Below, piece by piece: positions 4,547 through 29,522 of a DNA stretch of 38,525 bases. The stretch lies in the IMG/VR virus record IMGVR_UViG_3300038701_001382, positions 1-38,525 of that record. The stretch is one strand, 5' to 3'. The notes under the pieces are model-generated. The model was not told the DNA's origin and did not search any database. It saw only the letters and a list, made by a program, of their open reading frames with translations. The DNA is from a virus. Positions within the stretch are counted from its first letter, which is position 1, and every line of letters starts with the position of its first letter. Both the position numbers and the translations under genes were made by a program.

Positions 4547-5764
4547 ATGTCTGTTGAAAAACTACATGATCTAGAACAGAAGCGCGACAATATTGCACGC
4601 CAGATGCGCTCATTAAATGAGACTATCGGTGATGGCGATTGGTCAGAAGATCAGCGCACAAACTTTCGCTCAATGCAATCTGAGCTAGGCGACCTTGACG
4701 ATAAGATCTCAATGGCAAAAGAAATGCGTCGACTTGACGCTGAAGATGCTAAGCATCAAGCTCAGCAAGAGCATGAAGAGCGAGCGCGTCACGATGCTGC
4801 TGGCGGTGACGAAAAGCGTTACGGTGAAATATTCGAAAAATCAATGCGTTTCGGCTTTGCTGAATTGACGCGTGAAGAGCGTGACATTATGAAGCGCGCC
4901 GGACAAAACACCGGTACTGACTCTGCTGGTGGTTACACAGTACCAACAGATTTTAACTCTCGCGTTATCGAAGCTATGAAGGCTTACGGCGGCGTTGCAA
5001 ACAACTGTCAAGTGATGAACACAACCGACGGTCGCGCTATTGAATGGTCAACCACTGACGGCACGGCTGATATGGGTGCGTTTATTGCTGAAGCAACAAA
5101 AGCAACCACTCAAGATGTAGTGTTTGGTCAAAAGACAATTGGCGCTAAAAAGCTAACATCTAACGTCATCCTGATCTCTAACGAGCTTCTACAGGATACC
5201 GGGATTGCAATGGACAGCCTGCTTGTAAACCGCATCGGTACTCGTATCGGTCGTAAAGAAGCTGACGCCATCGTAAACGGCACTGGTACTGGTCTTGAAA
5301 ACTCAGGTCTAGATAAGCAGGTTACAGCTAAAACCAATATCGCAACTGCCGCGGCCGTTAACTGGAAAGATATTAACAAACTAGTTCACTCTGTGGATCC
5401 TGCTTACCGTGGCGTTGCGAAGTTAGCATTTAATGATGCGACATTCGCGCTACTGAAAGAGCAAGAAGACTCACAAGGTCGTCCGCTATGGTTGCCCTCT
5501 GTTGCTGGCATGGCTCCGTCGACAATCCTTGGCGAGCAGTACTTTATCGATCAGGCAATCGCTAACGCTGCGTCAACTAACAAGTTCATGTACTATGGTG
5601 ACTTCAACAAGTTCATCCTTCGCCGCGTTCGTTACATGCAGCTTAAGCGCCTAAATGAGCTTTACGCTGAGTCTGATCAAGTTGGTTTCCTAGCGTTCCA
5701 CCGCTTTGACACTCTTCTAGAAGACACCTCGGCAATCAAGGCATTGGCTTGGAAAACTAGCTAA
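4547..5764 (+). CDS. major capsid protein (HK97 fold)
   Basis: Shell protein of the icosahedral head. Residues 1-80 are a charged coiled coil (the scaffolding-like delta domain). From about 120 the sequence is the HK97-fold Phage_capsid family: GTDSAGGYTVPTDFNSRVIE, then the E-loop and P-domain, IGTRIGRKEADAIVNGTGTG at about 227-246, and a C-terminal A-domain ending ALAWKTS. The length of 405 aa is normal for a capsid precursor cleaved by the neighbouring protease. Its own Shine-Dalgarno (AGGAG, 4532-4536) and a strong terminator 28 nt after the stop suggest high, separately tuned expression. Whether it crosslinks like HK97 cannot be told. Confidence 0.95.
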   Translation: MSVEKLHDLEQKRDNIARQMRSLNETIGDGDWSEDQRTNFRSMQSELGDLDDKISMAKEMRRLDAEDAKHQAQQEHEERARHDAAGGDEKRYGEIFEKSMRFGFAELTREERDIMKRAGQNTGTDSAGGYTVPTDFNSRVIEAMKAYGGVANNCQVMNTTDGRAIEWSTTDGTADMGAFIAEATKATTQDVVFGQKTIGAKKLTSNVILISNELLQDTGIAMDSLLVNRIGTRIGRKEADAIVNGTGTGLENSGLDKQVTAKTNIATAAAVNWKDINKLVHSVDPAYRGVAKLAFNDATFALLKEQEDSQGRPLWLPSVAGMAPSTILGEQYFIDQAIANAASTNKFMYYGDFNKFILRRVRYMQLKRLNELYAESDQVGFLAFHRFDTLLEDTSAIKALAWKTS

Positions 5765-6173: not shown

Positions 6174-6503
6174 ATGAGAGCTGGAAAACTAAGAAGCAAA
6201 ATTGACTTAATGCGCCTTCAGCCCGTCACTGATGACGTTGGAGATACAACAGAGCTATGGGTTAAGTACGCATCAGGTGTTCGGTGTGACGCTCGCTCGG
6301 TGTCCTCTCGTGAGCAGATGCGCCACAACGCCGAACTCTCAGAGCTGGTATACACGATAGAGATGCGATACCGGGGTGACGTAAAGGCGAGTGACAGGAT
6401 CGTGCTTCATGGCGTTGGTGAGCTTGCCATTATTGGACCACCAAGGCCCGGAGATGATCAGAAAAACAGAAGTATGATAATCACTGCGAGGCTAGATCAA
6501 TGA
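6174..6503 (+). CDS. head closure / head-tail joining protein (Phage_H_T_join family)
   Basis: Head-closure protein (HK97 gp7/SPP1 gp16-like) that seals the connector and gives the tail its docking surface. The opening MRAGKLRSKIDLMRLQ and the beta-rich body are the family signature, for example WVKYASGVRCDARSVSSREQ and the YRGDVKASDRIVL stretch. Length 109 aa is normal. It starts 8 nt after the previous gene and overlaps the next by 4 nt (ATGA), so it is translationally coupled. Confidence 0.88.
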   Translation: MRAGKLRSKIDLMRLQPVTDDVGDTTELWVKYASGVRCDARSVSSREQMRHNAELSELVYTIEMRYRGDVKASDRIVLHGVGELAIIGPPRPGDDQKNRSMIITARLDQ

Positions 6504-7453: not shown

Positions 7454-7459
7454 TATAAT
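7454..7459 (+). promoter_or_regulatory. possible promoter -10 box before the fiber-like gene
   Basis: Exact TATAAT at 7454-7459 in the 155-nt gap after the tail terminator gene. No good -35 is seen at 16-18 nt, so the call is tentative. It stands upstream of a hairpin plus T6 plus ATG arrangement like those at 18131 and 24870, both of which also have promoter-like boxes upstream. Confidence 0.45.
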
Positions 7460-7549
7460 ACTTATGTTGCATTGTGGGGATGCATCATTGTCTGTCAGGG
7501 CGCGCACTGGCGGACACTCCCCCACAGCGACAACTCCCCACATACAAAT

Positions 7550-7587
7550 AGCCCCACGCCGATCCACCTCACGCACGGGGCTTTTTT
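7550..7587 (+). terminator. terminator-like hairpin abutting the next start codon
   Basis: AGCCCC (7550-7555) pairs with GGGGCT (7577-7582) around a 21-nt loop and is followed by T-tract 7582-7587, directly against the ATG at 7588. It looks like an intrinsic terminator, although the loop is long. The start codon has no Shine-Dalgarno. Confidence 0.6.
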
Positions 7588-8742
7588 ATGTCTGAATGCT
7601 TACCAACAAAAGAAAATATTTCCGTTTATGAGGGCGACGATTGCGTCATGCAATTCACGTCCCAATTTGGCGACCTAACAGGCGCTACAGTTAAACTTCA
7701 AGCCCGCATTGATACATCATCAAGATATGCAATCATCGACGTTGACGGCGCTCTCGTTGATGCCGCACAAGGCATATATAGTGTCACATTCCCTAGCTCA
7801 GTAACGCTAGGAAAAGGACAAGACAAAGCGTACTACTACGATATCAAAATACAAAAGTCAGACAAGAGCATACACACAGATCGTAGCGGAATGCTGACTA
7901 TTGACCCAAGAACAACTGACCTTAACGCACAGCCAGTTATCACTACATCCGGCGTCGATATCAAGAAAGACGGCGCATTATTTAAAGCTGATGCCTCTGA
8001 TATCGATTTCTTAGGAAAGAACGTGCACGCTAACGTTGTAGGCAACGGCGTCCAGATCTCAGTTGATAAAACAAGCGGCTTTACGGATGAGGGTAGTATA
8101 GGTCAGTCCGACGACCCGAAAACCAAGACCACAGGATCGTACTACGTCACCGAGCAATTTATCGGAGCGCCAACGCTACCCTCCGGTGATTACGTTGGGA
8201 TGATGCTAATTCAGAACAATATCGACTCTGACAATGGTCGTCACATTCTTTATTTCAACACAGATGGCATGTTCACGCTAACGAAAGAGGCTGGAGGATG
8301 GGACACTGACTGGAAGCACTACCGGGCTGGTGTGTCTTTCTCTGATGAAGGCTCAATGATTGGCGACTTCTCTAGCGTGGATTTTAAGGGCGCTGGTGCT
8401 GGTGCGGTTGACCTAGGTGCATTTACTGGCTCAACGATTGCTGACAACGAGAGCATCAAGGACGCACTACAGACGTTAGAAACTAAAGCCGAGGCAGATG
8501 CTCAGATTTATGCTAACAACCGTTCAGAGCTTACCACGCAAACAAATACGGCTGGTACGTGGACTACGTTTACTCATAATCTGAATGAAGATCGATTAGC
8601 TTCTGTAAGCTTCTTTGATGAGGGAAACAACATGCAGAACCTGAACGGATCTGTTTTGTGGAGACCTAAATCTGGTGATTCAAATTCAGTTGAGGTGTAC
8701 GCGTCTCAGGTCAAGACAATGACTATCGTTTTTAGAGCGTAG
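7588..8742 (+). CDS. fiber-like or decoration structural protein
   Basis: 384 residues, probably a virion surface protein. Residues 1-110 form a beta-rich domain with the look of the BppU N-terminal/Ig-like modules that anchor receptor-binding proteins. Residues about 165-250 contain a knob-like pattern seen in phage fibers (HILYFNTDGMFTLTKEAGGW then TDWKHYRAG). The C-terminal 100 residues hold a short helix (IKDALQTLETKAEADAQIYA) and a beta-rich tip. Lying between the head-tail genes and the tail tube gene, it could be a head fiber, neck fiber or second receptor-binding protein. The ATG directly follows a hairpin plus T6 with no Shine-Dalgarno, but the encoded N-terminus fits the domain. Confidence 0.6.
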   Translation: MSECLPTKENISVYEGDDCVMQFTSQFGDLTGATVKLQARIDTSSRYAIIDVDGALVDAAQGIYSVTFPSSVTLGKGQDKAYYYDIKIQKSDKSIHTDRSGMLTIDPRTTDLNAQPVITTSGVDIKKDGALFKADASDIDFLGKNVHANVVGNGVQISVDKTSGFTDEGSIGQSDDPKTKTTGSYYVTEQFIGAPTLPSGDYVGMMLIQNNIDSDNGRHILYFNTDGMFTLTKEAGGWDTDWKHYRAGVSFSDEGSMIGDFSSVDFKGAGAGAVDLGAFTGSTIADNESIKDALQTLETKAEADAQIYANNRSELTTQTNTAGTWTTFTHNLNEDRLASVSFFDEGNNMQNLNGSVLWRPKSGDSNSVEVYASQVKTMTIVFRA

Positions 8743-12878: not shown

Positions 12879-12952
12879 TACCTATAACTTAACTCTGAGA
12901 TAACTATATATACATTATTTGCACACGTCAAGAGTTAGCTATAAAATAACTG
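12879..12952. promoter_or_regulatory. overlapping divergent promoters with TAACTA-type operator repeats
   Basis: Leftward promoter: TTGACG (complement of 12926-12931), 17-nt spacer, TATAGT (complement of 12903-12908). Rightward promoter: TTGCAC 12919-12924, 17-nt spacer, TAAAAT 12942-12947. The -35 boxes sit side by side. Repeats at 11-bp spacing lie on each -10 region: TACCTA 12879, TAACTC 12890, TAACTA 12901; and TAGCTA 12936, TAACTG 12947. One bound protein at each set would block the polymerase. Confidence 0.75.
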
Positions 12953-12981
12953 TGTTACGTAACTAAATGAGGAATTACATA

Positions 12982-14085: not shown

Positions 14086-14330
14086 AGGACAACCCGTACG
14101 AACAGTTAATCGGTAGGGTAGCTGAAACAATCGGCTACCCTTTTTTCATGGTAGAAGAGTTTCCGGTTAGCGAGCTTGATAGGTGGGCTGTCCGATTCGC
14201 AATGCAGAATGAATTGGCGTCAGGTGGAAAGAAAACGCCGAGCAAGCAAAGCTCTGTTACACCTGATACAATATCAGTAGAAAATTCGCAGGCTCTTTTA
14301 ATGGAGCTTTTCAGAGGAAATAAGGGTTAA
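13744..14330 (+). CDS. tail assembly chaperone, -1 frameshift fusion (gpGT-like)
   Basis: Made by -1 slippage at 14073-14079. After the shift, reading continues in the -1 frame from GCC at 14079 to the TAA at 14330, adding about 83 residues (ALEDNPYEQLIGRVAETIG, later PVSELDRWAVRFAMQNELAS). The T part has no credible independent start near the junction, the frames overlap correctly, and the stop lies 2 nt before the tape measure ATG. This is the lambda G/GT arrangement: the short form predominates and the fusion links chaperone to tape measure and tube. Confidence 0.88.
14073..14079 (+). promoter_or_regulatory. programmed -1 ribosomal frameshift site
   Basis: Heptamer A AAA AAG in the zero frame (codons 14074-14076 and 14077-14079), within a run of nine A. 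A downstream pairing CCCTA 14080-14084 with TAGGG 14114-14118 could act as the stimulating structure. Confidence 0.88.
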
Positions 14331-17462: not shown

Positions 17463-17510
17463 TATCTATAAAATAACTATTGAATAACTATCATAACTCT
17501 ATTATAGTTA
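17463..17510 (+). promoter_or_regulatory. promoter with tandem TAACTA operator repeats
   Basis: TTGAAT 17480-17485, 17-nt spacer, TATAGT 17503-17508. TATCTA 17463, TAACTA 17474 and TAACTA 17485 are spaced exactly 11 bp. TAACTC 17494 and an inverted TAGTTA 17505 follow. The repeats cover the -35 box and flank the -10 box of the promoter for the small cassette. Confidence 0.8.
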
Positions 17511-17538
17511 TCTCATCCTAAAGAGAGAGGAAATAAAA

Positions 17539-18103: not shown

Positions 18104-18130
18104 CCACATAATAACCATCCATGCTACAAT
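18101..18130 (+). promoter_or_regulatory. extended -10 promoter with paired TAACCA repeats
   Basis: TAACCA at 18101 and 18112, spaced 11 bp, then an extended -10 TGCTACAAT (18122-18130). No -35 box is obvious, as allowed for TGn-type promoters. It drives the tail-tip genes after the accessory cassette. Confidence 0.62.
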
Positions 18131-18159
18131 AGCCCTATGTTAACGCGTAGGGCTTTTTT
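18131..18159 (+). terminator. terminator-like hairpin abutting the next start codon
   Basis: AGCCCTA (18131-18137) / TAGGGCT (18148-18154), 10-nt loop, T6 at 18154-18159, then ATG at 18160. A transcript from the -10 box at 18125 would start inside the left arm and so could not form the hairpin, whereas read-through from upstream could. Confidence 0.75.
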
Positions 18160-18543
18160 ATGGACACTGCAACAGTAACAGAGATTTCTAGCTACATACG
18201 AGATAATCGGGATACTCCTTTTGAATGGGGCTCATTTGATTGTTGCGTGTTCGTGGCAACTGCAATTAAAATTCAAACTAAGATTGATGTTTACAAGCCT
18301 TATTCCGGCAAGTACAAGACAGAGATTGGAGCGGCCAAGGCACTGAAGAGGTACGGTTCAATTGAAGATACCCTTGATAAGTACTTCGAGCGAATCAATC
18401 CGGCGCTTGCTGGTCGCGGTGACGTTCACATGCTAAGCAATGGAATAATGGCATTACAGTTCTCTGGCGGAAAATGGGCCACCACTGAAAGCGGAGTTTC
18501 AATCGTGAACGAAGAATCTACAATATGTTGGAGAATTAAATAA
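18160..18543 (+). CDS. tail assembly cysteine hydrolase-like protein (DUF6950/NlpC-P60-like)
   Basis: 127 residues. The motif TPFEWGSFDCCVFVATAI, with probable nucleophile Cys28, is the signature of the small NlpC/P60-like family that replaces lambda gpK in tail-tip operons. It may cut peptidoglycan during DNA entry or serve only in assembly. The segment AGRGDVHML (near residue 88) could carry the His. The ATG at 18160 gives the expected N-terminus, which supports this unusual start directly after hairpin plus T6. Its stop overlaps the ATG of the tail tip gene. Confidence 0.8.
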   Translation: MDTATVTEISSYIRDNRDTPFEWGSFDCCVFVATAIKIQTKIDVYKPYSGKYKTEIGAAKALKRYGSIEDTLDKYFERINPALAGRGDVHMLSNGIMALQFSGGKWATTESGVSIVNEESTICWRIK

Positions 18544-21218
18544 TGGCAGCAGCAATAGGTGCGGTAGTTATAGCGGCTGGTGGCTGGGGTACGGTTGCAA
18601 CCGTTGCCCTTGCCGCTGCGTCATTCGCATACGCGTACAGCGCCCAAAAGAAAGCTAAAGGCGCAAGTCAGGAGCCAGCAGAACGCAAGCAGGTGTTACG
18701 CTCAAGCTCGGCACCAAAAAACTACATATACGGAAGGACTAGATCATCTGGGCTGCTTGTGTTTGCACAGGAAGAACAGGGGGACCAAACCGATGGCGAG
18801 TGGATTCACTTAGTTCTAGCAAATGCCGGGCACAAGATAAACTCAATTAGCAATGTTATGCTCAATGAGGAGTCAATCACAAACTATCCTGATAACTCAT
18901 CGTTTGCGGCATATCCTGAAGGTCGAAACGATGCTGATCCATTCCTGTTGGCTAACTGCCCCGGCTGGACCAGTAGTATGATTGGTAAGGATATTGCTTG
19001 GTCTAGAGTCTCATTGAAGTTCGATCAAGAGAAATTCCCTAGCGGGCTACCAAACATCACTATGGAAAAGGAAGGATTTAAGGTTGAAGATATTCGTACT
19101 GGCGCTGTGCAATGGTCCGACAATCCGGCGCTTTGTATTCTTCACTTCTTGCGCCTTAAAGGCTGGGAGGATGAGTATTTAATTCTTGATACCTTTAAGG
19201 AAGCAGCGAACATATGTGATGAGGAGATATCTGTTCCCACTGGAGGTAGTGAGCGAAGATATAGAATAGGTTGTGAGTTTGATGATTCAGACACTCCAGC
19301 TAGCGTGCTTGATAAGATGCTTGCCTCTTGTGGCGGTGAGTGGGTTCGTGTTGGTGGTCGCATAGGTCTACGCGTTGCTGCGTACTACGGCCCGGCTTTT
19401 ATAGAAATCACAGAAGATGACATAATTGACGGAATAGAGATTCAACCGGAAGTAGACAGAAGCTCATCATTTAACATTGTTCGCGGAACATTTGTCGATC
19501 CAAGTCAGAATTACACAGAGATTGACTACCCAGAAGTTAAGGTCGATGGATGGGTTGCTGATGACGGTGAGCAAATTGTCATGGACTTTGACTTAAACTA
19601 CGTTCAGTCTGGATGGCAAGCTCAGCGACTAGCTGATATTGCGCTCAAGCGTAGTAGGCTTGGTATGACAATAAAGCTACCATGTAACCTTCGTGGATTC
19701 CAAGCTACTCCGGGGACAATGATAAACCTTTCATTACCAACGATAGGCTTTAACAAAACTGAATTCATGGTCGTTGATTGGGAATTTTCCATTGATGGCG
19801 GGGTTTCTCTTGTTGTTCGTAGGGATATGCCAAGCTTCTATAATGATGCCGTTGGGCGTCCAGTAATTCCGCCGCCGCTAATCGATCTGCCTACTGGCGG
19901 AGTTCCAGCACCGACTAACCCTTTATTTTCAGCGCAAGCTGTGGGTGATGTGGTTCAAGGCGTTATATCTTGGACCAATACAGTGTTCCAGATATCCTAC
20001 ACAAATGTCATTATAAAAGACGGTGCCGGGTTTATCGTGCAGTCTGCACAGGTGCCTTTCCCATCTTCAGAGCTTCCATTAAACGGTAGGCTGGCTGGTG
20101 ATTATGATATTGAGCTGCAAAACGTTGCGGTTAATGGCGCTAAGTCTACAGTCACAAAAATGACCATTACAATTAGCGAGCCGCAAACGCCGGACGTTGT
20201 TAGCATTAAGGCGTCAAACTGGTCTATTCATTTGGTGCCGGGTTACACGCTTGGCTCTGTTCCATTTGGCACGCTGTTCGAGTTCTATGTTGATGAGACG
20301 CAACAAGCAGATCCACCTCCTGCTAGTAGAGAGCCTGATGAGGTAGCTTCAAGCTGGAATCAGGGCGGATTAACTCCTGATAATTATTACTACTACTGGA
20401 TTCGAGCGGTCAACTCGTACGGTAAGTCAGGCTGGGTGCAAAAGACGGTAAAGACAACTAGAGAGAGTGGGCTTGTTGAAACTCTGGTAGAAAAGCTAAT
20501 AGGTATCGAGATTTATGCGCCATACATTGCCAGTGATGAGACCGATAACCCGGCATTTCTTCTTGATGGCAGGCCAGATCACGGTAACGGGTTAATTAAA
20601 GGGGCTACCATTGAAGCGTCCACAATGAAATCCGATAACTACGTTGCTGGAGCTACTGGATTTCAGCTAACAAGAAGCTCAGCAGAGTTCAACAGTGGCG
20701 CTGTGTTTCGCGGAACACTAGCGGCAGCTAGCGGTAGTTTTACCGGCACAGTTCAAGCTGACAAAATCATCGGCGACGTTGTTTCATCTACGATTATGAG
20801 CATCGACACTGGAAACAAGAGCACTTCTGGCAGCCAGTGGGTTACAATTGCCACCGTAAGGTGCAGGAACGGCAACCCTAAATCAGGAGTTTTTTACCTG
20901 TCACCTATACCTATGTATCACAGTATTACGTCAAGTAGTCCTGAGAGCTCTTGGTTTATCAACTTCGGGGCTAGAATTCTAAGGAATGGCTCGGTTGCCG
21001 CTCAGATTTACGAGAGGGTTAACGGCAGTGGGAGAGAGACAATCGCAACTGCGTATTCTTCACCAAGCTTTGCTCAGAACATGAACCCCGGTGATGACTA
21101 TACGTTTACCTTGCAGATACTTTCAGGGCCAAGCTCGGGACAGTACATAGGGCACTCTAAAAGCCTGTCGTCTTCCGTTGCTCCACAATTCTTTGTTAGA
21201 GGCTCCGCGTTCCCATAA
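18543..21218 (+). CDS. central tail tip protein (lambda gpJ-like)
   Basis: 891 residues. Forms the tail hub/tip and contacts the receptor or carries fibers. A hydrophobic N-terminus (AAAIGAVVIAAGGWGTVATV), then the tip-attachment region with YIYGRTRSSGLLVFAQEE near 60-77, and hub domains to about 440 (WEFSIDGGVSLVVRRDMP). Fibronectin III-like strands follow at about 460-650 (YYYYWIRAVNSYGKSGWVQK). From about 650 a fiber-like tail (IEIYAPYIASDETDNPAF, repeated GATIEASTM-type strands) ends beta-rich. The order after the DUF6950 gene is canonical. The C-terminal 200 residues are the part most likely to set host range. Confidence 0.88.
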   Translation: MAAAIGAVVIAAGGWGTVATVALAAASFAYAYSAQKKAKGASQEPAERKQVLRSSSAPKNYIYGRTRSSGLLVFAQEEQGDQTDGEWIHLVLANAGHKINSISNVMLNEESITNYPDNSSFAAYPEGRNDADPFLLANCPGWTSSMIGKDIAWSRVSLKFDQEKFPSGLPNITMEKEGFKVEDIRTGAVQWSDNPALCILHFLRLKGWEDEYLILDTFKEAANICDEEISVPTGGSERRYRIGCEFDDSDTPASVLDKMLASCGGEWVRVGGRIGLRVAAYYGPAFIEITEDDIIDGIEIQPEVDRSSSFNIVRGTFVDPSQNYTEIDYPEVKVDGWVADDGEQIVMDFDLNYVQSGWQAQRLADIALKRSRLGMTIKLPCNLRGFQATPGTMINLSLPTIGFNKTEFMVVDWEFSIDGGVSLVVRRDMPSFYNDAVGRPVIPPPLIDLPTGGVPAPTNPLFSAQAVGDVVQGVISWTNTVFQISYTNVIIKDGAGFIVQSAQVPFPSSELPLNGRLAGDYDIELQNVAVNGAKSTVTKMTITISEPQTPDVVSIKASNWSIHLVPGYTLGSVPFGTLFEFYVDETQQADPPPASREPDEVASSWNQGGLTPDNYYYYWIRAVNSYGKSGWVQKTVKTTRESGLVETLVEKLIGIEIYAPYIASDETDNPAFLLDGRPDHGNGLIKGATIEASTMKSDNYVAGATGFQLTRSSAEFNSGAVFRGTLAAASGSFTGTVQADKIIGDVVSSTIMSIDTGNKSTSGSQWVTIATVRCRNGNPKSGVFYLSPIPMYHSITSSSPESSWFINFGARILRNGSVAAQIYERVNGSGRETIATAYSSPSFAQNMNPGDDYTFTLQILSGPSSGQYIGHSKSLSSSVAPQFFVRGSAFP

Positions 21219-24420: not shown

Positions 24421-24468
24421 TTGACTTAACCGTTAGGTAACTATAATATAACGATAATTGAAATGCAA
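24421..24468. promoter_or_regulatory. divergent overlapping promoters with three operator repeats (switch region)
   Basis: Rightward: TTGACT 24421-24426, 17-nt spacer, TAATAT 24444-24449, for the regulator gene. Leftward: TTGCAT (complement of 24463-24468), 17-nt spacer, TATAGT (complement of 24440-24445), for 24053-24397. TAACCG 24427, TAACTA 24438 and TAACGA 24449 are spaced 11 bp and sit between the two -35 boxes, overlapping both -10 boxes. Confidence 0.8.
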
Positions 24469-24869: not shown

Positions 24870-24900
24870 AATCCCCACACTAACCATGTGGGGATTTTTT
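24870..24900 (+). terminator. terminator-like hairpin abutting the next start codon
   Basis: Ten-bp stem AATCCCCACA (24870-24879) / TGTGGGGATT (24887-24896), 7-nt loop, T6 at 24895-24900, then ATG at 24901. It is the strongest of the three hairpin-T6-ATG arrangements. Confidence 0.85.
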
Positions 24901-25074
24901 ATGGCTACACCTACTCAAATAAACATGATAACTAACCTCATTAGAACCAGTATTCACAATTACAATGAGCTTGAAGTTTTCCTTGACTACGTTGCGTCTA
25001 TGATTACAGCGAGAGAGTCTGGAGATTGCGCCCAATTAAAAGCCGATATTCAAAGAGAGCTATCTGATATATAA
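24901..25074 (+). CDS. small hypothetical protein in the lysis region
   Basis: 57 residues, helical, starting MATPTQINMITNLIRTSIHN and ending in acidic/charged helices (LKADIQRELSDI). No membrane helix is seen. The ATG directly follows hairpin plus T6 and has no Shine-Dalgarno, as at 7588 and 18160. It lies between the regulator and the lysis genes. Function is not recognised. Confidence 0.55.
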   Translation: MATPTQINMITNLIRTSIHNYNELEVFLDYVASMITARESGDCAQLKADIQRELSDI

Positions 25075-25107
25075 TTACTCTGGGTTAACTAAATAGGAGT
25101 CCCCACA

Positions 25108-25290
25108 ATGAAACTATTAGATGGTGGTGCCGTTCTGCTTATCTTTGCGGCGCTTTATTGGGTGGTATCTGATGCATTCACGGAGCCACAATGCTACGTT
25201 CAAACAAATGAAAAGCCTTACGTTGCAAAGTGGATGAGTTGTAGCGATATTCCTAGCGAGTGGATCGTACTGGAGAGTGAGCATGAGTAA
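25108..25290 (+). CDS. small membrane protein before the endolysin gene
   Basis: 60 residues with an N-terminal membrane helix (about 7-24, GAVLLIFAALYWVVSDAF) and a periplasmic-type tail with two cysteines (PQCYVQ and WMSCSD). Position just upstream of, and overlapping, the endolysin suggests a lysis role (pinholin, antiholin or spanin-like), but there is no lipobox or proline-rich spanin feature. The TAGGAGTCCCCACAATG leader is shared with 23681. The stop overlaps the endolysin start by 8 nt. Confidence 0.55.
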   Translation: MKLLDGGAVLLIFAALYWVVSDAFTEPQCYVQTNEKPYVAKWMSCSDIPSEWIVLESEHE

Positions 25291-28979: not shown

Positions 28980-29453
28980 TTAGAATGGTGGGGTGTCGTC
29001 ATCAGAATAATTGTATTGAGGCTGGCTTTGACTCTGTGTTTGCTGCTGTTGTGGCTGCTGCGGTTGCCCCCACCCTCCATGCTGCTGTTGGCGTGATTGC
29101 GATTGCGAGCCTGTCATTTCGCTAACCGGTAAGGCTCCTTCAAGTCTTGGGTTTTCCATAATCATTGTGACGTAAGTGACGCCGCTATCAGCTTGAAATA
29201 GTTCAGCCTTTAGCTTTTCTGATGCAACGGTAACAAAAGATCCTTCCTCGAATGCTTTTGAGTAAAAGTCATTAGCACCCTGAGTTTTAGCAAAGAACAT
29301 TGCTTTGTAGTTCGTGTATGTTTTCTCTTCTGTTCGGTAGTCCTTGATCACCTCAGCAAGTTCGATGATATACATTGTTGATTGCCCGTCTTGCCCAACT
29401 CCCGGCTTTACAAATGGCTGCTTTCTTAGTTTTCCGCTAACTACATGAGTCAT
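28980..29453 (-). CDS. ssb: single-stranded DNA-binding protein
   Basis: 157 residues. N-terminal OB-fold part to about 110 (AMFFAKTQGANDFYSKAFEE), then a Gln/Ser/Gly-rich linker, and an acidic tip ending DDDTPPF. This is nearly the bacterial SSB tip (DDDIPF) that docks replication and repair partners, so the protein may recruit host factors. It coats single strands in phage replication and recombination. Neighbours are the recombination genes. A possible promoter with operator-like repeats lies just upstream (29481-29515). Confidence 0.88.
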   Translation of the reverse strand: MTHVVSGKLRKQPFVKPGVGQDGQSTMYIIELAEVIKDYRTEEKTYTNYKAMFFAKTQGANDFYSKAFEEGSFVTVASEKLKAELFQADSGVTYVTMIMENPRLEGALPVSEMTGSQSQSRQQQHGGWGQPQQPQQQQTQSQSQPQYNYSDDDTPPF

Positions 29454-29515: not shown

Positions 29516-29522
29516 ATTTTGT

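Follow-up and report, generated by a model that had tools for sequence, protein, structure and literature searches.

At the E. coli frd terminator/ampC attenuator, an upstream unit is terminated within the leader of the gene that follows, and in IS10-type fold-back inhibition, read-through RNA is kept from translation. The PeSL cassettes of T4-type phages are small units composed of an early promoter and a stem-loop, which are located between genes and look mobile. In the T4 genes e, soc, 49, and I-TevI and in mobE of phage Aeh1, a hairpin occludes the ribosome-binding site (RBS) and has a late promoter inside it; the helix of the read-through RNA hides the Shine-Dalgarno (SD) sequence and/or the AUG, whereas transcripts started locally, in which the 5' part of that helix is absent, are translated (PMC3014915, PMC2988022). 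Some phage genes have a terminator in their 5' end, for example the mobE and segF genes in T4-like phages, with a termination of ~30% in mobE (PMC2988022).

We analyzed a virus record of 38,525 bases (the window), whose + strand carries genes for the head, the tail, and lysis and whose proteins have their relatives in Vibrio phages, K396 being the nearest. An earlier note on this DNA had reported that a hairpin, exactly six T, and an ATG follow one another three times, and we indeed found this arrangement at 7550-7590, 18131-18162, and 24870-24903 (Table 1; sites are designated below by their start codons, 7588, 18160, and 24901). A scan of both strands for a hairpin, T5-7, and ATG returned these three sites and nothing else, compared with a mean of 0.02 and a maximum of 1 in 300 dinucleotide shuffles of the window. 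The word TTTTTTATG occurs four times on the + strand and is absent from the - strand, as is its reversed control from the window. The K396 orthologues of the proteins starting at 7588, 18160, and 24901 (60%, 57%, and 68% identity) align from Met1, and protein conservation starts at Met1 in the orthologues of all three genes, so that the three ATG starts are real, as had been claimed for 18160. A search for the pattern in related phages, which the note had recommended, showed that all three arrangements are kept at the orthologous starts of K396 (8408, 21865, and 29516, with T6, T6, and T7, respectively). Searches of IMG/VR with the 7588 and 24901 proteins, and of GTDB genomes with the former, returned no relatives. 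A fourth near-case at 14115-14150, with TTTTTC-ATG (ATG at 14148), was rejected for lack of conservation in K396 and of an SD-like arm; it precedes a 60-aa frame between the tail chaperone and the tape measure.

Table 1. Features of the three hairpin-T6-ATG sites (window coordinates)
Site	Feature	Start	End	Strand	Basis or remark
7588	Leader -10 TATAAT	7454	7459	+	Distance to GTTGCA identical in K396 and the 1.004.O group
7588	Structured leader RNA (predicted)	7465	7549	+	Helix 1, 7466-7470/7527-7531; helix 2, 7474-7479/7520-7525; covarying helix 3, 7489-7516; second CCCCAC copy, 7536-7541
7588	Terminator-like hairpin, AGCCCC (7550-7555)/GGGGCT (7577-7582)	7550	7582	+	SD-like GGGG in 3' arm
7588	T6 before ATG	7582	7587	+	Sequence
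7588	Gene with tail/virion-type domains	7588	8742	+	PHROG 10818/24595 matches
18160	Extended -10, TG-C-TACAAT (TGCTACAAT)	18122	18130	+	Sequence; directly abuts hairpin; abutting -10 kept in K396 (TATACT) and in unrelated phages
18160	Hairpin	18131	18154	+	5' arm, 18131-18140; loop, 18141-18144; 3' arm, 18145-18154; folds
18160	SD-like UAGGG in 3' arm	18148	18152	+	Anti-SD -3.4 kcal/mol; about 6-7 nt from AUG
18160	T6, putative terminator U-run and spacer to AUG	18154	18159	+	Sequence
18160	DUF6950/PHROG 2134 gene, 127 aa, between tail genes	18160	18543	+	Cassette-started gene; family matches
24901	Promoter (predicted), TTGAAT-17-TAGAAT	24794	24822	+	K396, TTGACA-17-TAATAT at matching place
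24901	Terminator hairpin (predicted), AATCCCCACA/TGTGGGGATT	24870	24896	+	SD-like GUGGGG in 3' arm; conserved in K396 and 2.044.O
24901	T6 before ATG	24895	24900	+	T7 in K396, T5 in 2.044.O
24901	Gene for 57-aa conserved protein	24901	25074	+	First gene of endolysin block
24901	Endolysin	25277	25621	+	PHROG 894; same block as 24901 gene

As in the T4 genes, the RBS is paired in the predicted read-through RNA at all three loci and in their orthologues. The local transcript would lack the 5' arm at 18160 and in its recurring counterparts (see below), as judged by the position of the -10 box, whereas at 24901 and 7588 the promoters lie upstream of the whole hairpin, unlike in the T4 set. Homing endonucleases and a phage lysozyme, which are also represented in that set, are among the hairpin-T6-ATG genes found here. 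The T4 late promoter TATAAATA, which is read with gp55, was absent from the cassettes, whose boxes are of the extended -10 type used by the host. The cassette hairpin further differs in being terminator-like, in having its U-run as the putative spacer between SD and AUG, and in a stem that ends at the AUG; moreover, phages of other groups also have the cassette, there in front of genes for virion proteins, integrases, and kinases. With no T4 late promoter and a terminator-like stem ending at the AUG, we do not file the cassette as a member of the T4 type. It shares with the mobE and segF terminators an apparent intrinsic terminator that would limit read-through into or beyond a gene, yet theirs are within the coding region, whereas that of the cassette reaches up to the start codon, with one arm as the putative SD. 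The likeness to PeSL cassettes lies in the small promoter and stem-loop units between genes; to our knowledge, no fusion of a -10, a terminator, an SD, and a start codon has been described for them. Likewise, the frd/ampC and IS10 elements are not fused with a -10 and a start codon, nor are they recurring cassettes. A literature search found no description of such a fused element among open-access papers. What is new relative to the T4 genes is that the modeled hairpin doubles as an intrinsic terminator, with the ATG straight behind U6.

The earlier note saw no SD at these starts. This turned out to be incorrect, since the G-rich 3' arm of each hairpin (CGGGGC, UAGGGC, and UGGGGA) is SD-like and located 5-7 nt from the AUG, inside the stem, with a predicted anti-SD pairing of -3.4 to -5.5 kcal/mol. 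A G-run in the 3' arm was found at 10/10 orthologous sites (-3.4 to -7.2 kcal/mol, 5-7 nt from the AUG), the pairing being similar to or somewhat weaker than that of the phage's other genes. Fold predictions for the full-length RNA gave a probability of ~0 that the G-run is unpaired, at the three loci and in the orthologues. At the window sites and in the recurring cassettes, a GC-rich stem is followed immediately by a U-run, as in intrinsic terminators. Because the 3' arm is SD-like at 5-7 nt yet fully paired in the full-length RNA, the G-rich arm and the U-run of the modeled terminator are, in shape, an SD and its spacer. The feature common to all three sites, according to the folding models, is thus a dual-use hairpin: a terminator-like stem with a G-rich arm as SD-like element.

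A single mechanism does not account for the three sites. The promoter-like boxes that had been noted upstream of each are present (at 7454, 18122, and 24794), but only the one at 18160 abuts its hairpin, the promoters of 7588 and 24901 being ~85 nt and ~45 nt or more upstream, respectively, so that a local transcript would contain the whole hairpin. We judged promoters by sequence, often as an extended -10 without a good -35; indeed, the -35 at 18160 is poor, and the predicted promoter therefore rests on the extended -10. Since this -10 abuts the 5' arm, the RNA start predicted from its position (~18137) falls within the arm, and the local transcript would lack the 5' part of the stem. Folding predicts the hairpin in the 18160 read-through RNA (-15 kcal/mol) and its loss in the local RNA; for the short K396 transcript, the model still partly pairs the SD arm.

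We propose, with a probability of roughly two in three, that the 18160 element does four jobs in one and that the hairpins of the other two sites act as an attenuator (24901) and as the end of a leader RNA (7588). At 18160, the extended -10 ends where the hairpin begins, and the first bases of the 5' arm would belong to the promoter and be absent from the local RNA. Polymerase arriving from upstream would copy the whole hairpin and U6 and tend to terminate right before the AUG, and any RNA that reads on past the hairpin would have its SD locked in the stem. RNA started locally, ~23 nt before the AUG, could not form the stem, which would leave UAGGG (GAGGG in many relatives) free, with U6 as the spacer to the AUG. 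The gene would in this way be insulated from its neighbours and driven by its own promoter alone. The earlier proposal of a gene silent by read-through and active from a local promoter hence fits 18160, where the abutting box is conserved, but not 7588 or 24901. As a point against this model, no intergenic hairpin precedes the wider homologues of the 18160 gene, whose starts coincide with or lie within the end of the preceding gene; the cassette thus belongs to the genome position and not to the gene family.

At 24901, all transcripts, local or not, would cross the hairpin, which should attenuate the lysis block; we infer that the hairpin is an attenuator at the head of this block. An in-frame ATG at 24886, inside the hairpin, is not conserved, and the gene start is 24901. 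Vibrio phage 2.044.O contains an unannotated gene of 57 aa (25097-25267), the orthologue of 24901-25074 and of the K396 gene at 29516, which is preceded by a hairpin and T5 directly before its ATG.

The 7588 hairpin would be the last element of a leader RNA that hides both the SD and the AUG. This leader is conserved from ~7465 in three diverged phage groups, and its helix 3 has ten pairs in every phage, whereas arms mixed between groups pair at 5-8 of the 10 positions. Fold predictions pair the AUG as well in the leaders of the window, K396, and 489E54-1. A search of the window, K396, and 1.004.O leaders against Rfam 15 gave no match above the gathering score, and the leader pattern had no match in IMG/VR and one, in a spirochaete, in GTDB. 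The 489E54-1 leader is 92% identical to the 1.004.O type and precedes a different gene; the leader thus goes with a position in the genome and not with a particular gene. The hairpin, the SD-like arm, and the ATG are kept in the 1.004.O group, where ACC replaces T6 (GGGGCTTACC-ATG), and in 489E54-1, which has T3 instead (GGGGGCUUUAUG), so that the T-run is dispensable at 7588 and T6 was not supported as an essential part of this site. With its own promoter, a length of ~120 nt, a covarying fold, and a terminator-like end, the leader might be a separate small RNA running from the promoter at 7454 to a terminator at 7587, the adjacency of the next gene being secondary. We consider this unlikely, because the RNA would continue into the gene in the 1.004.O group and in 489E54-1, where the T-run is missing, and because the adjacency of hairpin, SD-like arm, and ATG persists despite that loss. 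Three CCCCAC copies of the leader are spaced exactly 16 nt apart (7520-7557, with 7474-7479), and similar triplets exist in K396 and the 1.004.O group. Each conserved CCCC(A/G)C copy could possibly pair with the 5' GUGGGG and thereby free or close the last hairpin. GUGGGG/CCCCAC words are common to sites 7588 and 24901 and to the downstream RBS at 25101, which gives no firm base for RNA-RNA control.

We looked for the 18160 arrangement in other phages. BLAST with 111 bases around 18160 gave matches confined to the cassette, in Vibrio and Pseudoalteromonas phages; their E-values were 0.002 to 0.3, so that each was read individually. The matches extend to the annotated ATG, before genes non-homologous to the 18160 gene, and in 1.017.O, 1.246.O, C7, H103, and TW1 the cassette precedes neck, minor head, and coat-type genes whose annotated start is the ATG after T6. 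Searches of annotated phages with two cassettes returned hundreds of weak matches with E up to 10, many of which are therefore chance; those inspected fully end at the annotated starts of a tail protein (Acinetobacter phage Brutus), a portal protein (Vibrio phage 1.113.A), and minor tail proteins (Pantoea phage MED16 and Escherichia phage Ioannina). T6 was found in K396, in the five phages with neck, minor head, and coat-type genes, and in 1.113.A, MED16, Ioannina, and Brutus. Cassette phages thus have hosts in the genera Vibrio, Pseudoalteromonas, Acinetobacter, Pantoea, and Escherichia, and the genes behind the cassette encode portal, head morphogenesis, head, neck, tail, and minor tail proteins, integrase, deoxynucleoside monophosphate kinase, and homing endonuclease. 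Their -10 boxes (TACAAT, TATACT, and TAAACT) often have the TG, and their 3' arms mostly read UAGGG or GAGGG. Over 23 cassettes, the predicted folding energy was -11 to -21 kcal/mol for the full hairpin and 0 to -1.8 kcal/mol for the local transcript. The portable promoter/terminator/start cassette suggested earlier therefore stands for the 18160 type, which precedes non-homologous genes elsewhere, but not as one mechanism for the three sites. In Vibrio phage 1.164.O, the hairpin and T6 are kept, the ATG has become ATT, and a new SD and ATG are located further downstream.

Two IMG/VR scans for hairpin-T6-ATG, blind to the upstream sequence, yielded 217 distinct matches, which we clustered by protein and downstream DNA; T6 was fixed in these scans, and the freedom of the T-run was judged only on relatives found by other routes. 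A -10-like hexamer (at least 4/6 matching) abutted the hairpin before 13 of the 30 distinct open reading frames (ORFs) of at least 80 aa, compared to 4 of the 134 short ones (odds ratio 25, Fisher p 3e-8, deduplicated), the remaining 17 long-ORF clusters having no abutting -10. The hexamer peaks sharply at an offset of 0 or 1 nt before the hairpin, and the extended TG was present in 7/12 cases, against a background of 6%. Clusters included portal, head morphogenesis, head, and adaptor proteins, P2-type integrase, and deoxynucleoside monophosphate kinase. Among all terminators collected, a -10 abuts 51/263 of those with a following ATG versus 30/517 of those without. Clustering by the DNA around the hairpin gave a weaker result (p 8e-5) and was discarded, as the cassette itself had merged different genes.

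The arrangement might nevertheless be a coincidence, if T6-AT(T/G) is a common terminator end in phages and a gene close behind it sometimes uses the ATG, with no special regulation. In 231 generic IMG/VR phage terminators, the T-run was indeed followed by ATT in 50 and by ATG in 33, far above other triplets, and the ATG, which mostly has no long frame, opens frames no more than ATT does. Most ATGs in the scan matches open no gene either, and we rejected T6-ATG as a general phage start mode, since ATG is common after terminators and mostly opens no gene. Coincidence is nonetheless an improbable explanation, a little more so than the small RNA, for three conserved gene starts within a window of 38 kb and again in K396, for the link of long frames to a -10 at one exact offset, and for the recurrence of the 18160-type cassette before unrelated genes.

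Another possibility, also raised by the note as a translation mode using the U-run and the hairpin, is SD-independent initiation, in which an AUG after U6 is recognized via ribosomal protein S1, with the hairpin serving only to position the AUG. U-rich leaders can assist initiation, and UAGGG at 18160 is a weak SD. The relatives of 7588, however, keep the hairpin, the SD-like arm, and the ATG with ACC or T3 in place of T6, and many cassettes have GAGGG arms with an anti-SD pairing of ~-6 kcal/mol. Initiation by the U-run alone is not needed to explain the starts, and we give it even less credit than coincidence.

Between phages, the stem arms (AGCCCTAT/ATAGGGCT, AGCCCTGT/ACAGGGCT, AGCCTCATT/AATGAGGCT, and AGCCTTATC/GATAGGGCT) have diverged through compensatory and G-U changes, a sign of RNA pairing and not of a DNA palindrome. 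That a phage- or host-encoded regulator binds the inverted repeat as a DNA operator, as the classic location of the repeat directly downstream of the -10 and the similar arm sequences would allow, is the least probable of these explanations, because the arms covary, G-U pairs break DNA symmetry while keeping RNA pairing (AGCCTTATC/GATAGGGCT in K396 and H103), and the six-T run is constant beside the stem.

Returning to the dual-use hairpin, we lean slightly toward the more general view that the 18160 type is a module of ~40 bp, fusing a -10, an intrinsic terminator, an SD, and a start codon, that serves unrelated genes in phages of several host genera as a lock for read-through RNA, open for local RNA, and that moves or arises anew as a unit. 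Phages would place it mostly at the head of virion-gene blocks, which it would insulate. A single small element may thus stop read-through and at the same time begin a new gene block, which, if true, would explain both the separation of neighbouring transcription blocks at no cost in DNA in compact phage genomes and the apparent lack of an RBS in some phage genes. The sequence rule TAnnnT, hairpin, T6, ATG would then lead to true starts of gene blocks and point to missed genes, such as the one in 2.044.O. As a minimal insulated start element, the cassette would be suited to a plasmid reporter, and the conserved 7588 leader RNA is a second, separate target for study.

A variant cassette of 1.113.A (4914-4965) has an ATG that opens a frame of four codons, MGEI, ending in TAATG; its overlap with the start of the following gene, at 4963, looks like stop-start coupling. 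Just upstream of the integrase ATG, four P2-type integrase cassettes and relatives contain a LexA-box-like CTG-N10-CAG (e.g., CTGTTCAAACATACAG and CTGTATATACATACAG), which sits between a TTGAC(C) -35 and the -10 and suggests that the P2-type integrase may be under SOS control. Repeated ATAACTAT/ATAGTTAT words, perhaps the site of a phage regulator, are found in intergenic positions of the window (~12910-12960, 17480-17530, and 24440-24460) and of K396 (6400-6440, 20030-20060, and 29040-29060). In the window, the genes at 12967 and 24463 are nearly devoid of an SD and are closely preceded by a -10-like box.
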